NCBI RefSeq assembly: GCF_000336675.1
Contig: NZ_AOMB01000033.1
Coordinates: forward strand, 86,507-150,506
Length of the DNA stretch: 64,000 bases
Direction of reading: 5' to 3'
From: Halococcus hamelinensis 100A6
Lineage (GTDB): Archaea; Halobacteriota; Halobacteria; Halobacteriales; Halococcaceae
Shown here one piece after another: positions 16,714 to 60,981 of this stretch (the stretch's first letter is position 1; each line of letters begins with the position of its first letter). A model generated the notes under the pieces. That model did not search any database. It was not told the DNA's origin and saw only the letters and a list, made by a program, of their open reading frames with translations. Both the position numbers and the translations under genes were made by a program.

Positions 16714-16760
16714 ATCTTACCAAACATTGAATCAGTGTCCTCATCTTTGTGTTAGGTAAG
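16714..16760. repeat. Stem-loop repeat, copy A
   Basis: A 47-bp segment beginning ATCTTACCAAACATTG and ending GTGTTAGGTAAG, with near-complementary ends (CTTACCAAAC and GTTAGGTAAG). Related copies lie at 49862-49908 and 51211-51258. It is about 100 bp upstream of the SLC13 gene. It could be a MITE-like insertion or a conserved hairpin. Confidence 0.55.
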
Positions 16761-49861: not shown

Positions 49862-49908
49862 CTCTTACCAAACATTCAGATATCATCTCGTTTGGCGTTA
49901 GGTAAGAT
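49862..49908. repeat. Stem-loop repeat, copy B
   Basis: Begins CTCTTACCAAACATTC and ends GGCGTTAGGTAAGAT. The ends form a near-perfect hairpin stem. It shares both ends with copies A (16714) and C (51211). It lies just after the small membrane gene. Confidence 0.55.
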
Positions 49909-50064
49909 TCAATAAATCGCTCAGCGAGGGTTCGAAAAGGAGGAAATCACCGAGCTAACGATTCACTTCCGCTGTCCTTGGCGCGTGTATATGCCGGTAG
50001 CTATCCAATCTCTACCGCGGAATAGGGAGGAAAAGGAAAGGAGTCCAACAACTGGAACCGAGAA

Positions 50065-50215
50065 GACAGCCGAATTCAAGCAGAAAACCACACCGAACCT
50101 CTGGTTCGACGACCAAGCCGAGGAGGCAGTAGAATTCTAGGTATCGGCGTTCGATAATTCGATAGTTGGGACAAGCAGCCGTTACAATGCAGCAAAATGG
50201 CTGGCTGTTAGAAGG
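50065..50215 (+). pseudogene. VOC-family (PhnB-like) protein fragment
   Basis: The frame reads TEKTAEFKQKTTPNLWFDDQ, then AEEAVEF, a TAG at 50138-50140 exactly where family members have Tyr, then VSAFDNSIVGTSSRYNAA before losing similarity. PNLWFDDQAEEAVEFY is a classic PhnB/VOC start. It has no ATG and is cut downstream. Confidence 0.75.
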
Positions 50216-50245: not shown

Positions 50246-50285
50246 CTCTCGTATCTCTACCTTATCGCCAGAAGCACTTAAAGAA
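50246..50285 (+). repeat. 40-bp direct repeat, left copy
   Basis: Agrees with 51130-51169 at 37 of 40 positions in the same orientation. The pair brackets the RNAP epsilon gene, 884 bp apart. The unit ends GAAGCACTTAAAGAA, which includes a TATA-like CTTAAA. Confidence 0.7.
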
Positions 50286-50310
50286 AGTAGCCGATTCGTA
50301 GACCTGTGGG

Positions 50311-51048
50311 TCATGCCGAGGAGCCAGCCACAAGATCTGGCAGACTCGGGTCCCGGTAGGGATTCCGGCCATAGACTGCGTCGTGCAGACCTTGTTCATC
50401 AAGCTGGTCGACGAGCGTTCGCCGTAGCCGGTTCAGGTTCGTGACACCGAGGTCGTGTCGTTCGCAGAGTTCCGTGAACTGCTTATCGTCTGTGATCGAC
50501 TGGAACTGCTCGTAAAGGTCGGCGAGTCGCTCGGGTGGCTGCTCTGCAACCCACTCATCATCGTGGAGACCGAGATGCTGCTCACGCTCACGGTCGACAA
50601 CGTGGCGGATCACGACGAGCGCGACCTTGGGGATGGCACGCTGACTCCCGAAGGCGGCGAGGTCGAGGTCGACCATCGTCCCGATGGCGCGATCACGTTG
50701 CCACGGGGTGAGATCCAGACTGCTACACAGGGCGTGAGTCAATCGGAGTTTTTCGAGCCGGTGCGCACGCCGGCTGTAGCCCTCCATCGCAGGATGGCGC
50801 TCGTCGTGGAGCCGCCGAACGTTCTCACTGAGGTCGTGCTCGGGTGCGTCCGCGCGCCCGATGCGCGTCGCACTCGGCGTCACGAGCCCCCATCGCCGGA
50901 CGGTTTCGTCGCGCTGGAGATCCGCCCGTGAGACAGTACTATCCCCAGGAAGCTGGCTGAGAGGCGAGATATCGCGTTCGCTGAGCAGTGCCGGGCGGCG
51001 GTCCTCGACTGTCGGGAGTAAATACCGACCAGCATCCTCGTCGGTCAT
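50311..51048 (-). CDS. Haloarchaeal RNA polymerase subunit epsilon-like protein
   Basis: A 245-residue soluble protein. Conserved stretches are WGLVTPSATRIGRADAPEHD, LCSSLDLTPWQRDRAIGTMV, DLAAFGSQRAIPKVALVVIR and LNRLRRTLVDQLDEQGLHDA, which I recognise as the family annotated as RNA polymerase subunit epsilon in haloarchaea. The helical TPWQRDRAxGxM region resembles TFB cyclin folds. Function beyond association is unclear. It is flanked by a 40-bp direct repeat on both sides and is monocistronic. Confidence 0.7.
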   Translation of the reverse strand: MTDEDAGRYLLPTVEDRRPALLSERDISPLSQLPGDSTVSRADLQRDETVRRWGLVTPSATRIGRADAPEHDLSENVRRLHDERHPAMEGYSRRAHRLEKLRLTHALCSSLDLTPWQRDRAIGTMVDLDLAAFGSQRAIPKVALVVIRHVVDREREQHLGLHDDEWVAEQPPERLADLYEQFQSITDDKQFTELCERHDLGVTNLNRLRRTLVDQLDEQGLHDAVYGRNPYRDPSLPDLVAGSSA

Positions 51049-51129
51049 TACGCAGCCAGTACTGCTTGCTCGTAGTTGAAAGGCATGGCTACGTACAGTA
51101 ACCCTCCAGCGAGAAACCAGCGCGTTCCT

Positions 51130-51169
51130 CTCTCGTATCTATACCATATCGCTAGAAGCACTTAAAGAA
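51130..51169 (+). repeat. 40-bp direct repeat, right copy
   Basis: Partner of 50246-50285. It lies about 80 bp upstream of the epsilon start codon. It could be a promoter unit duplicated together with the gene, or the end of a mobile cassette. Confidence 0.7.
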
Positions 51170-51210
51170 TCAGCGCTCACAACGTGCCCTCGGCTTTCCT
51201 TGTCCCTAGT

Positions 51211-51258
51211 ATCTTACCAAACGCTTAGCGCGTCATGAGAGCTAGAGTTTGGTAAGAT
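51211..51258. repeat. Stem-loop repeat, copy C
   Basis: Begins ATCTTACCAAAC and ends GTTTGGTAAGAT, an exact 12-bp inverted repeat, with a 24-bp loop. It is the most symmetric of the three copies (A, 16714; B, 49862). Confidence 0.65.
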
Positions 51259-51292
51259 GGGACCTCCTTCTCGTGGAGCGAGACGACCGATA

Positions 51293-51448
51293 TTAGTGCT
51301 CTCGCTGCGTGAAGTAGGTGTCCAAGTGGAGCTCGTGAGTGACTTCTCTCAATGATAGTCCACCACAATCGTCGCACTCAGATGGCTCATCCGGCGACGC
51401 ATAGATTATCCCACACTGCTCACAAACGAAATACCGCAGGTTGAGCAC
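51293..51448 (-). CDS. Zinc-ribbon small protein
   Basis: Starts at GTG 51448 and encodes LRYFVCEQCGIIYASPDEPS, then ECDDCGGLSLREVTHELHLD. Two CxxCG knuckles spaced 16 residues form a clear zinc ribbon, as in rubredoxin-like or transcript-factor-like small proteins. It ends beside stem-loop copy C. About 51 residues, possibly longer if another start is used. Confidence 0.6.
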   Translation of the reverse strand: MLNLRYFVCEQCGIIYASPDEPSECDDCGGLSLREVTHELHLDTYFTQREH

Positions 51449-51534
51449 ACTCGATCTACGCGAGCGAATCTCAAATCATTGCCGTGAAATGTCGCTCATT
51501 GGGTCCGGATGACTTTGCTGGTCGGATTCGTACT

Positions 51535-51822
51535 GTGGGTATACGAGCCGTTCGCTATCACGAGTATGGTGGTCCGGCCGTCTTCAACGCCGACAAGATC
51601 GATCGTCCAGTGCCCGATACGGGTGAGGTTCTTCTTGAAGTCCAGGCCACGACTGAGAACGCAGTGGATACGCGCTTTCGAGTGGGAACCTAATGGTTTA
51701 GTCCCATTCCCAGGAATTCCCGGTGGTGATGCCGCTGGAGTGGTCGCAGAAGTCGGCGAGAAGGTCTATCCGTTCAACGTCGGCAACCAAGTGTTCACCA
51801 AGGGGATGGGTGACGACGATGT
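51535..51822 (+). pseudogene. Medium-chain alcohol dehydrogenase fragment with frameshift
   Basis: From GTG 51535 the frame reads IRAVRYHEYGGPAVFNADKI and GEVLLEVQATTENAVDTRFR, then stops at about 51691. The next frame carries NGLVPFPGIPGGDAAGVVAE, VGEKVYPFNVGNQVF, so one base was lost or gained near 51690. The Rossmann domain is missing after about 51820. It is a relic of a quinone-oxidoreductase-type gene. Confidence 0.8.
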
Positions 51823-52051
51823 GAGTTGTTCTCAACTTGTGTACCTTTCCATAGGCTAGGTTTCCGACCCAGCGAGGGTAGAGTAGATATGTTAGATAGA
51901 TAATAGATGTTCTGTGCCAAAAACACCTGTTTTCAGCACCGACCAGAAAACCTCAGTCCCTCATATACTGATTCGCAGGATGAGTAGGAAGTCCGGACGT
52001 ACTCGGTCCAACACTCTGCGTTGATATTTTTGTTCTGCCTCGCTCTCCTGA

Positions 52052-52522
52052 TCATCCGGACGCAACTGCGGGATCAGTTTCATCGGTCCCACCTGCGAGC
52101 TCAATATCAAGGCGGACCCAACGGTAAGGGACGTAGGGACGTTTCGTCTGGCCCTCGTCGACAACGAAGATGAGGCCATACTGGTCGAGCACTCCCACAT
52201 CGTCGTGAACCGGGCGGTAATCGCGGTCGAGAGCGTCCGCGAGCGCGGTGATGCTCTCGGCTGCGCCGTCAATGGTGATCAGCAGGCGCAGGAGTTCGAT
52301 ACGCCGCTCAGTGAGGATTTTCCGCAGATCGTCGATACTCGCGAATGAGACGACTGCGGGCGTCGATTCACCATCTTCGACAGTGCGTGCCGCTGCAAAC
52401 GTTTCCTCACGTGCTTGCTCGAACGGTTCGACCGTGATCCGAAGTGTTTCGGGATGGGGCCGGTCACGCGGGTCGCGGTACTCAGCGGGCCAGCCGTCGT
52501 GGGTGGGTTCATTGTCAGTCAT
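52052..52522 (-). CDS. HVO_A0114-type winged-helix protein, probable antitoxin
   Basis: A 156-residue protein. A basic N-terminus is followed by a winged helix: ERRIELLRLLITIDGAAESI, then TALADALDRDYRPVHDDVGV, LDQYGLIFVVDEGQTKRPYV. This matches the HVO_A0114 family, often paired with TumE-like toxins. Its start overlaps the toxin stop by 8 nt, so here the toxin gene comes first. It probably represses the pair and neutralises the toxin. Confidence 0.75.
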   Translation of the reverse strand: MTDNEPTHDGWPAEYRDPRDRPHPETLRITVEPFEQAREETFAAARTVEDGESTPAVVSFASIDDLRKILTERRIELLRLLITIDGAAESITALADALDRDYRPVHDDVGVLDQYGLIFVVDEGQTKRPYVPYRWVRLDIELAGGTDETDPAVASG

Positions 52523-52808
52523 TGGGTGTCTCCTCGATGATGCGCGCTATTTCAGTGAAGAACAGGCTAACGTGCGCGACAAGACTCTGAAATGCGAGAG
52601 CAGTATCCTCGCCGTCAGTGACATGTCGGTGGTGGTTGCCGAGTGTTTCATCGTCATGAGCGTTGTCGTAGCGCAGGATTTCGCCCTCCTCAGGGTGGTA
52701 GTACTGGAAGCGATAGAACCACCCGCCAGGATAGCCTGCATCGAGAATCGCGAACATCTCGACGCGCCCACCCGGGACAGCCCGATTGAGCTCGAGTGGT
52801 CCTGACAT
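52515..52808 (-). CDS. TumE-family (DUF6516) toxin
   Basis: A 97-residue protein. GGWFYRFQYYHPEEGEILRY and AHDDETLGNHHRHVTDGED resemble DUF6516/TumE proteins. TumE is the toxin of the TumE-TumA pair described in bacteria; the enzymatic target is not fixed. Downstream overlap with the winged-helix gene supports the pair. TAA-poor promoter not obvious. Confidence 0.7.
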   Translation of the reverse strand: MSGPLELNRAVPGGRVEMFAILDAGYPGGWFYRFQYYHPEEGEILRYDNAHDDETLGNHHRHVTDGEDTALAFQSLVAHVSLFFTEIARIIEETPND

Positions 52809-54517: not shown

Positions 54518-55096
54518 ATGTCTCACACATCGAGTGTCAACAGGCAATCGGTACCAGAAGTACATTCAGAGGGTAAGGCAGGCGACTACCCAAACACTGT
54601 CGAAGACCCGACAACGGGTGCTCGCATCACGTTCCTCGAACGCGGTGTCGACGACCGGGGAGCGTACCTGCTGATGGATGGTGAACTCCCAATCGGGGTA
54701 GACAGCGGACCGGCCCGCTTGCATCCATGGGCCGAGGCACGCTCCAAAGTGCTCGACGGTCGCGCCGTCGTCGACGTAGACGGCGAGGAGAGCGTCCTGC
54801 TCCCTAGCGAGTCGGTCGTTGTTGCAGCGGGCGATTCTCACACTATCCGCAACGGCGGCAAGGGAGCGCTCGTCGTCCGGACGACGCTTCGCCCACCGGG
54901 CGAGTTCGAAGATGCGATTAAAGCACTGTACAGACTCGGCACCAGCGGAGGACCCAACCTGCTCGGGGTAGCTGCGGTGCTTTACCGGCACCGAGAGGAC
55001 GTACGACTTACCAGTGTATCCTGGGGCCTCCAGCGCCCGCTCCTGCGGGTTCTTGCCGGAACAGCCAACGCTCTGGGGCATGATCCAACCCGGTAG
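54518..55096 (+). CDS. Cupin-domain protein
   Basis: A 192-residue protein. The cupin barrel covers DPTTGARITFLERGVDDRGA to GDSHTIRNGGKGALVVRTTL, with the metal-like His in ARLHPWAEAR. A C-terminal helical part begins RPPGEFEDAIKALYRLGTSG, with LRVLAGTANALGHDPTR at the end. A frameshifted paralog sits at 60437-60981. No enzymatic role is clear; small-molecule binding is expected. Confidence 0.8.
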   Translation: MSHTSSVNRQSVPEVHSEGKAGDYPNTVEDPTTGARITFLERGVDDRGAYLLMDGELPIGVDSGPARLHPWAEARSKVLDGRAVVDVDGEESVLLPSESVVVAAGDSHTIRNGGKGALVVRTTLRPPGEFEDAIKALYRLGTSGGPNLLGVAAVLYRHREDVRLTSVSWGLQRPLLRVLAGTANALGHDPTR

Positions 55097-60436: not shown

Positions 60437-60981
60437 ATGGATGTCCAATTTGAGCAGAAAACAAGAGAGGAGAATGCAGGGGAAACTGTCGAAGACGCGA
60501 GAACCGGTGGCCGTATCACGTTCCTCGACCGCGGGGTCGATGAGGAGGGGGCCTATCTGTCAATAGAAGGTGTGCTACCAGTTGATGTCAGTAGCGGACC
60601 GGCCCGCTACCATCCGCGGGCGGCAGCACGCGCCGAAGTGATTGCTGGCCGTGCTATCGTCGAGCTGGACGGTGAGGAGCGGATTCTGTTGCCTGGTAAG
60701 TCGACCGCTGTTACGGCAACGACGCCACATGCTATCCGCAATGATGGAGCGGCTCCACTCATCGTTCACACGATCTTCGGCCACCAGGTGATTTTGAGGC
60801 TGCAATCAAGAGACTCAACAATTTTGAAGCTAGAGGATTCAATCCACTTGTATTAGCTGCGACCCTCTATCGTTATCGAGACGACGTACAGCTTGCGGGT
60901 GTTCCCTGGGTAGCTCAGCGCCCGATTCTACGCATCCTCACCGAGGTAGCCAACCTCTTCGGGCGCAATCCAACCCGATAG
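60437..60981 (+). pseudogene. Frameshifted cupin paralog
   Basis: Paralog of the cupin at 54518. From ATG 60437 it reads TREENAGETVEDARTGGRIT and VSSGPARYHPRAAARAEVIA. At about 60775-60780 one base is missing and the frame changes: the rest, GDFEAAIKRLNNFEARGFNP and LRILTEVANLFGRNPTR, lies in another frame to a TAG at 60979. Restoring one base gives a full-length protein. Confidence 0.85.

Follow-up and report, generated by a model that had tools for sequence, protein, structure and literature searches.

Halobacterium epsilon is an extra polymerase subunit, purified long ago, that is reported to co-purify with RNA polymerase (cited in PMC8305020). Purified halobacterial RNA polymerase with epsilon transcribes native templates, and its relevance is termed 'enigmatic' in the passages concerned of that 2021 article on open annotation issues (PMC8305020). 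The protein encoded at the locus described here falls into the same annotated family as rpoeps, OE_1279R of Halobacterium salinarum. For haloarchaeal promoters, the motifs TTWT (TATA), CGAAA (BRE) and WW (-10) are given in the part of PMC4983044 that deals with them. The motif of this study shares with the haloarchaeal basal promoter a TATA-like TTTAAGT about 26 nt before the putative start. However, it differs by the conservation of its start-site box and of a long spacer box, and no CGAAA is seen in it. Cassettes and transposons bounded by direct repeats are also comparable. A single gene likewise lies between direct repeats here, and one single-repeat locus without the gene is found in the genus. 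In contrast to such elements, the unit has no identified recombinase gene, its repeat is promoter-like, and copies are also inverted or arrayed. In open-licence PubMed Central, no description of the motif was found, and nothing on an epsilon promoter class, multi-copy epsilon gene (eps) lineages or a bracketing motif.

The locus lies in the window, the whole stretch of 64,000 nucleotides of Halococcus hamelinensis 100A6 DNA that was analysed. Its repeat appears to belong to an ancient class of promoters that is linked to epsilon and flanks the gene on either side, with probable gene loss through the repeats as a secondary event.

The repeat pair and the epsilon gene

A repeat search in the window revealed two direct copies of 40 nt (R1 and R2, Table 1), which are identical at 37/40 positions (93%). 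BLAST of the window against itself returned the pair with E = 7e-9. The initial annotation had described this repeat, with the same identity and a single orientation, as bracketing an epsilon gene, and the description is confirmed. Its distance of 884 bp is correct from start to start, whereas the gap between the copies is 844 bp. A TATA-like CTTAAA had also been pointed out. The TATA box is indeed present, but it reads TTTAAG on the minus strand, which is that of eps, and CTTAAA is the reverse complement. The boundaries of the repeat are sharp, and the flanking 10 bases of the window copies agree at 1/10 positions on the left and 2/10 on the right (ungapped). For the final 16 bases, the window contains two occurrences at ≤3 mismatches, against 0.16 expected. 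As had been claimed, epsilon stands alone between the copies, in that no further gene was identified in the unit. It is overlapped by an antisense ORF (50455-50931, plus strand, 158 aa).

Table 1. Features of the eps locus in the window (positions count from the first letter of the window)
Feature	Position	Strand	Basis or remark
eps, encoding an epsilon-type RNA polymerase subunit of 245 aa	50311..51048	-	longest ORF between the copies; homologues
R2, upstream repeat copy, putative distal eps promoter	51130..51169	-	sequence; upstream motif in 16/16 Halococcus eps loci
R2 TATA box TTTAAGT	51160-51166	-	within R2
R2 spacer box	51144-51157	-	within R2
Spacer-box element of the motif TTCTGGCGA			
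R2 predicted start-site box AGATACGA	51133-51140	-	within R2
R1, downstream copy of the promoter motif, oriented as eps	50246..50285	-	25 bp beyond the eps stop codon
Possible proximal TATA box TTTCAACTA	51073..51081	-	sequence; 24 nt ahead of the eps ATG
Palindrome CTTACCAAAC-N24-GTTTGGTAAG, 44 bp	51213..51256	.	upstream of R2; common to lineage I eps copies
Approximate recombination breakpoint inside eps, lineage I (R2 side) / lineage II (R1 side)	50530..50600	.	identity switch

The eps counterpart was annotated as DNA-directed RNA polymerase subunit epsilon in six of the eleven matching plasmid records and as a hypothetical protein in the rest. The identity of the window protein was 83.8% to the Halococcus dombrowskii plasmid copy annotated as epsilon, 77-92% to other Halococcus copies, and 64-72% to annotated Halocatena and Halorussus proteins. 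It matched no family in Pfam or NCBIfam. Judged by its sequence, the protein is a member of the annotated RNA polymerase subunit epsilon family.

Degenerate copies of the palindrome listed in Table 1 (44-45 bp) are located at 49864-49906 and 16716-16760 of the window. Its half-sites number 11 in the window at ≤1 mismatch, against 1.8 expected. Exact palindromes were found in 4/10 genomes of the genus; several of them precede eps copies of lineage I, and some are elsewhere. The palindrome is perhaps a separate regulator site or a plasmid partition site. Adjoining the eps locus, a gene pair at 52052-52522 and 52515-52808 (minus strand) matches Pfam HVO_A0114 and TumE toxin and is likely a toxin-antitoxin pair. 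Decayed gene remnants lie on both sides of the locus, at about 51540-51830 and 50060-50160 (both plus strand), and we take them to derive from a quinone oxidoreductase and a VOC-type protein. The stretches 54596-55096 and 60485-60981 are 68% identical over about 500 bp and are probably a duplicated gene.

Predicted fold of epsilon

AlphaFold2 was run with 30 sequences. The model has a confident helical core at residues about 90-230, and the N-terminal 66 residues are unmodelled (pLDDT < 50). Foldseek ranked TFIIB and cyclins at the top, with a best E of 0.18 and none reaching 0.001. VIA-align also placed TFIIB highest, with 97 residues aligned at an rmsd of 2.2 Å and Z 10.9 in the region of its first cyclin repeat, followed by Brf2 and cyclins and with archaeal TFB at Z 9.0, where a Z of about 10 is also possible for helical proteins generally. 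No credible sequence relative was found in the PDB (best E 0.31 with the window protein and 0.12 with the profile). The core is predicted to be a single TFIIB-like cyclin fold, and in the model it resembles the first cyclin repeat of TFIIB. The general factors TFB and TFIIB have two cyclin repeats, whereas epsilon has one confident cyclin-like fold and no Pfam match. A second repeat was not found in the epsilon model, which contains one confident helical core only.

The repeat as a putative promoter motif

The aligned copies read TTTAAGT-NN-TTCTGGCGAYAAGG-NN-AGATACGA-G, and both ends are sharp. The spacer box TTCTGGCGAYAAGG is immediately downstream of the TATA box, and AGATACGA is at the expected start site. 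The TATA-like TTTAAGT is strongly conserved. In the motif matrix the highest information is at TTTAAGT, TTCT, GCGA-AA and AGATACGA. The matrix was built from 91 sites, and on both strands of 1.37 Mb of reversed sequence, which comprises overlapping loci, it gave no match at ≥6 bits and one at ≥4. A CGAAA-type BRE before the TATA box is absent in the Halococcus copies, and the matrix positions before TTTAAGT are low in information. The repeat looks like an extended archaeal core promoter, with a start site and an activity that are predicted from its layout. Nearer to the gene, TTTCAACTA is a possible proximal TATA box, and TTTAAACTA is similarly placed in other genera.

The first cyclin repeat contacts DNA immediately downstream of TATA in TFIIB complexes. 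Because this contact coincides with the position of the spacer box, it can be proposed that epsilon acts at this box.

Two other candidates around the leader were rejected. For structured small RNAs between tandem promoters, Rfam gave no matches at E 1 on 8 loci, and in 136 leaders of five groups the group mean folding z was -0.45 to 0.28 (60 shuffles each). For a leader peptide before eps, the frame of 12 codons in the window copy is broken by a stop codon in C37.

Copies in the window genome and in Halococcus

The window genome (3.4 Mb, 46 contigs) encodes epsilon three times, in the window copy of eps, at C37:44086-44814 and at C3:45115-45777. The repeat occurs six times in this genome at ≤3 mismatches, and the control gave none. 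Two copies are in the window, two bracket the C3 eps, one is upstream of the C37 eps, and one is at C37:33944. The last precedes an eps start without a gene body, and the surrounding DNA resembles window 51035-51756 (78%). All six copies sit at eps or an eps remnant. It had been suggested to look for extra epsilon copies with the repeat upstream of each, and all three eps genes of the genome do have it.

The repeat is present in 10/10 genus genomes (own included), each of which has eps as well, and in 0/8 other genomes of the family. There were 20 eps matches in the genus, of which 16 were scanned, the copies of G002 (H. morrhuae) and G008 among them being cut by contig ends. Two fragments (G007:C4), one from G009:C22 (H. 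thailandensis) and a paralogue (G006:C18) were left out. The upstream motif was found at all 16 loci, and a direct downstream copy within 500 bp at 6/16. At a seventh locus, G007:C5, the downstream copy is farther off, behind a gene that we presume to be IS-like. The paralogue, with 40% identity, has a weaker upstream motif with 11 mismatches. Comparison of the flanks divided the eps genes of the genus into lineages. Lineage I has the upstream copy only, lineage II has both copies, and a third lineage has the upstream copy only, with conserved downstream sequence.

The motif in other genera and across the order

Thirty named loci were counted, taken from L074-L103 without L074, L094 and L095 (window genus) and L097 (the protein match of L096), and with L067-L070 added. 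At ≤6 mismatches 26 of them, one being Halococcus dombrowskii, had the motif next to eps on one side or more, and 13 had it on both sides. For the other genera this corresponds to 25/29 named loci with the motif on one or both sides, the downstream copies being direct or inverted. At the same threshold it flanked eps in 21/22 loci of family f17, where genomes overlap, and the named loci and L134-L155 also overlap in genomes and are not additive. Families f17 and f7 are taken to be Haladaptataceae and Natrialbaceae, and g26 to be Halobacterium. Among divergent eps, 14/18 loci had the motif on at least one side. Neither side had it, at ≤6 mismatches, in 4/30 named and 4/18 divergent loci, and it was not found at two distant epsilon-annotated relatives, L072 and L073. 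Reversed-sequence controls of each locus set gave no matches.

In other genera the distance from the motif to the matched eps coding sequence is mostly 100-490 bp, with one case of 1042, and a further copy often follows eps. The downstream copy is inverted in 13/30 named loci. By genus, for loci whose eps is close to the query, Saliphagus, Halocatena marina and Actinarchaeum have this copy in direct orientation, and 7/9 Halorussus loci, 5/5 Haladaptatus loci and the sole Halomicrococcus locus have it inverted. Arrays of the motif are common, with spacings of mostly 115-150 bp.

For the order, 293 genomes were drawn evenly; one set of 20 genomes was picked for carrying the motif. The consensus motif was found in 96/293 genomes and its reversed form in none. 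An eps match at E 4.4e-46 or better was obtained in 141/293, and 11 more had distant relatives only. Both motif and eps were present in 95 genomes, the motif only in one, eps only in 46, and neither in 151 (Fisher 3e-40, not corrected for descent). Part of this association is inherent, since the motif is itself the putative eps promoter. From the 46 eps-only genomes, 18 eps loci were examined, and 13 had an upstream variant motif (≤6 mismatches). These variants have much the same TATA and spacer boxes and mostly another start-site box, such as TCGTAGTGA. The motif-only exception, G159, gave no eps match at E 1. Only 294 bases separate its last motif from the contig end, and an IS-like frame, presumably an IS transposase, is at the expected eps position. 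G159 decides nothing because the contig end and this frame occupy the place of eps.

The motif may also be read as a promoter combined with an operator for an unrelated transcription factor, which regulates eps and a few other genes and has epsilon as a mere target. The spacer box is placed where a repressor or an activator could overlap the start site, and tandem arrays with such spacings would suit a regulator too. Contact of epsilon with the motif is itself a proposal, drawn from the model and the position of the box. A general regulator and its sites, however, ought to outlive the loss of eps in some genomes, and the motif is absent in 151/152 genomes without clear eps, the remaining one being G159. 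This reading is rather unlikely.

Genes behind the motif

All motif sites were listed for 28 genomes of f17 (Halorussus and Haladaptatus, with G180 being Halorussus aquaticus and G193 Haladaptatus pallidirubidus). Among the 119 sites, 53 are within 1.5 kb of eps, 11 are at 1.5-20 kb, and 55 are at >20 kb or on other contigs. The initial annotation regarded eps as a possible cassette that can recombine out and named, as evidence to the contrary, a common promoter element at many unrelated genes. In the own genome the motif stands only at eps, whereas 55/119 sites in f17 are elsewhere. The cassette reading fails in part because many f17 sites stand away from eps.

The downstream genes were surveyed at 68 sites of 63 loci, nearly all away from eps. 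Thirteen of the 68 sites, in 13 genomes, precede one UbiA-family gene, and the motif is 88-133 nt before the gene start. We take this gene to be MenA-like, and its members are 82-86% identical to the one tested against Pfam. Four sites are before a BAAT-type hydrolase, about 2 kb from eps, and four are before a TrmB-type regulator. At 22/68 sites, no ORF of 60 aa begins within 420 nt downstream. In f7 the motif precedes an RlaP-family gene adjoining eps and, in three genomes, a gene that is presumably GNAT-like. In g26 both eps and a DsbA-family gene have it upstream. The DsbA-family gene in L206 and L242 matches Pfam DSBA.

In L242-L249 (f7), eps is near FolE2-type GTP cyclohydrolase and RlaP-family genes, with motif doublets or triplets ahead of the cluster genes, and L242 has its DsbA-family gene beyond eps. 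In Haladaptatus-type genomes (L106, L109, L112, L158-L160 and others), many copies of the motif lead into stretches where no ORF could be named. Some of these copies are followed by a TTAGTAT-ATACTAA-like palindrome or by a 177-aa TrmB-type regulator. They are possibly a mobile unit carrying the promoter.

Origin of the repeat pair

The window locus was compared with the eps lineages in 60-column bins. From R2 on, up to about 50590, it is closest to lineage I (0.80-0.98, against 0.33-0.88 for lineage II), and this resemblance begins upstream of R2. Past about 50590, through the end of eps and R1, it is closest to the lineage II copy G006:C10 (0.90-0.97, against 0.30-0.78 for lineage I). As the switch in identity indicates, R2 and R1 differ in ancestry and were brought together via recombination inside eps. 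Because eps is a mosaic of two lineages, R2 and R1 are not the ends of a local duplication. The tandem duplication that had been suggested as the origin is unsupported here, as the gene is mosaic and the flanks of the two copies are unlike. Tandem eps copies nevertheless seem to occur in the genus, in G005, where an eps-like leader and a decayed start lie behind the downstream repeat of G005:C26.

Loss of eps is represented by G007:C3, which has one repeat and no eps. On the upstream side, 725 bp of its flank match that of the G007 eps locus at 83%, and on the downstream side 173 bp match the sequence past R1 at 89%. Because this locus is without eps and keeps a single repeat and both flanks, repeat-mediated loss in the genus is probable, as a single case with a putative mechanism. 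The earlier idea of a unit recombining out is upheld by this one locus, but it does not explain the repeat.

A cassette, or the scar of a tandem duplication, that recombines out via the 40-bp repeats would agree with G007:C3 and with the eps-like leader in G005:C26. It is at odds with the different lineages of the window repeats, with eps being the sole gene of the unit, with the bracketing in other genera, where the downstream copy is often inverted, and with the motif ahead of other genes. The repeat is not specific to cassette ends, as the motif is also at unrelated genes and is inverted or tandem in other genera. Furthermore, R1 and R2 are identical at 35-39/40 positions inside seven loci, and the means between loci are 36.9 (R1-R1) and 35.7 (R2-R2). 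Concerted evolution of R1 with R2, which was considered, gave no clear sign against this average of about 36-37. There is little sign of homogenising exchange because the identity within loci is about that between loci. Such a cassette or scar is therefore judged very improbable as the explanation of the repeats.

R1 may instead be dead and functionless, left over from a tandem eps copy that was lost. Beyond R1 no product was identified, and the R1 of G005 with the decayed leader and start behind it is what such a remnant would look like. Yet R1 keeps its 35-39/40 identity to R2 in seven loci, whereas the 10 bases on either side are alike at 1-5/10 positions in 13/14 comparisons, the other being 9/10 in G005. 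The downstream copy also recurs in other genera, often inverted. We consider a dead remnant improbable.

Proposed role of epsilon

The reading that we favour, and hold to be somewhat probable, is that of an extended core promoter tied to eps, with epsilon helping the polymerase to start at spacer-box promoters, its own included, and with recombination as a side effect. Its basis in the sequence is the conservation and positions of the boxes, the tie to eps, the mosaic, and the other motif-bearing genes; the working of the promoter and the role of epsilon are inferred. R2 would drive an eps transcript with a leader. R1 would be another promoter of this class, placed behind eps and inherited with the 3' part of the other eps lineage. 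No product of R1 was nameable, and in the lineage II loci examined a convergent gene lies beyond R1. Epsilon, with its predicted TFIIB-like cyclin fold and its reported effect on the transcription of native DNA, would aid initiation by the polymerase at promoters bearing the spacer box. It would act on its own promoter, as feedback, and on a small regulon. Recombination between direct copies would be a side effect that sometimes removes eps.

More tentatively, and with a chance that we put a little short of even, epsilon may be a TFB-like promoter-selectivity factor of haloarchaea, a protein with a single cyclin fold that reads the box between TATA and start. Promoters with this box would then form a class apart, with a regulon of their own, and epsilon would control itself via the promoter arrays around eps. 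The proposed regulon would include eps, the UbiA-family MenA-like gene in Halorussus, and the RlaP-family RNA-repair-type and DsbA-family genes beside eps in other groups.

A motif that tracks eps across the haloarchaea, and that a small number of other genes also have upstream, makes the enigmatic role of epsilon testable. If epsilon does read this motif, archaea would have an accessory factor that chooses promoters by the sequence from TATA to the start.
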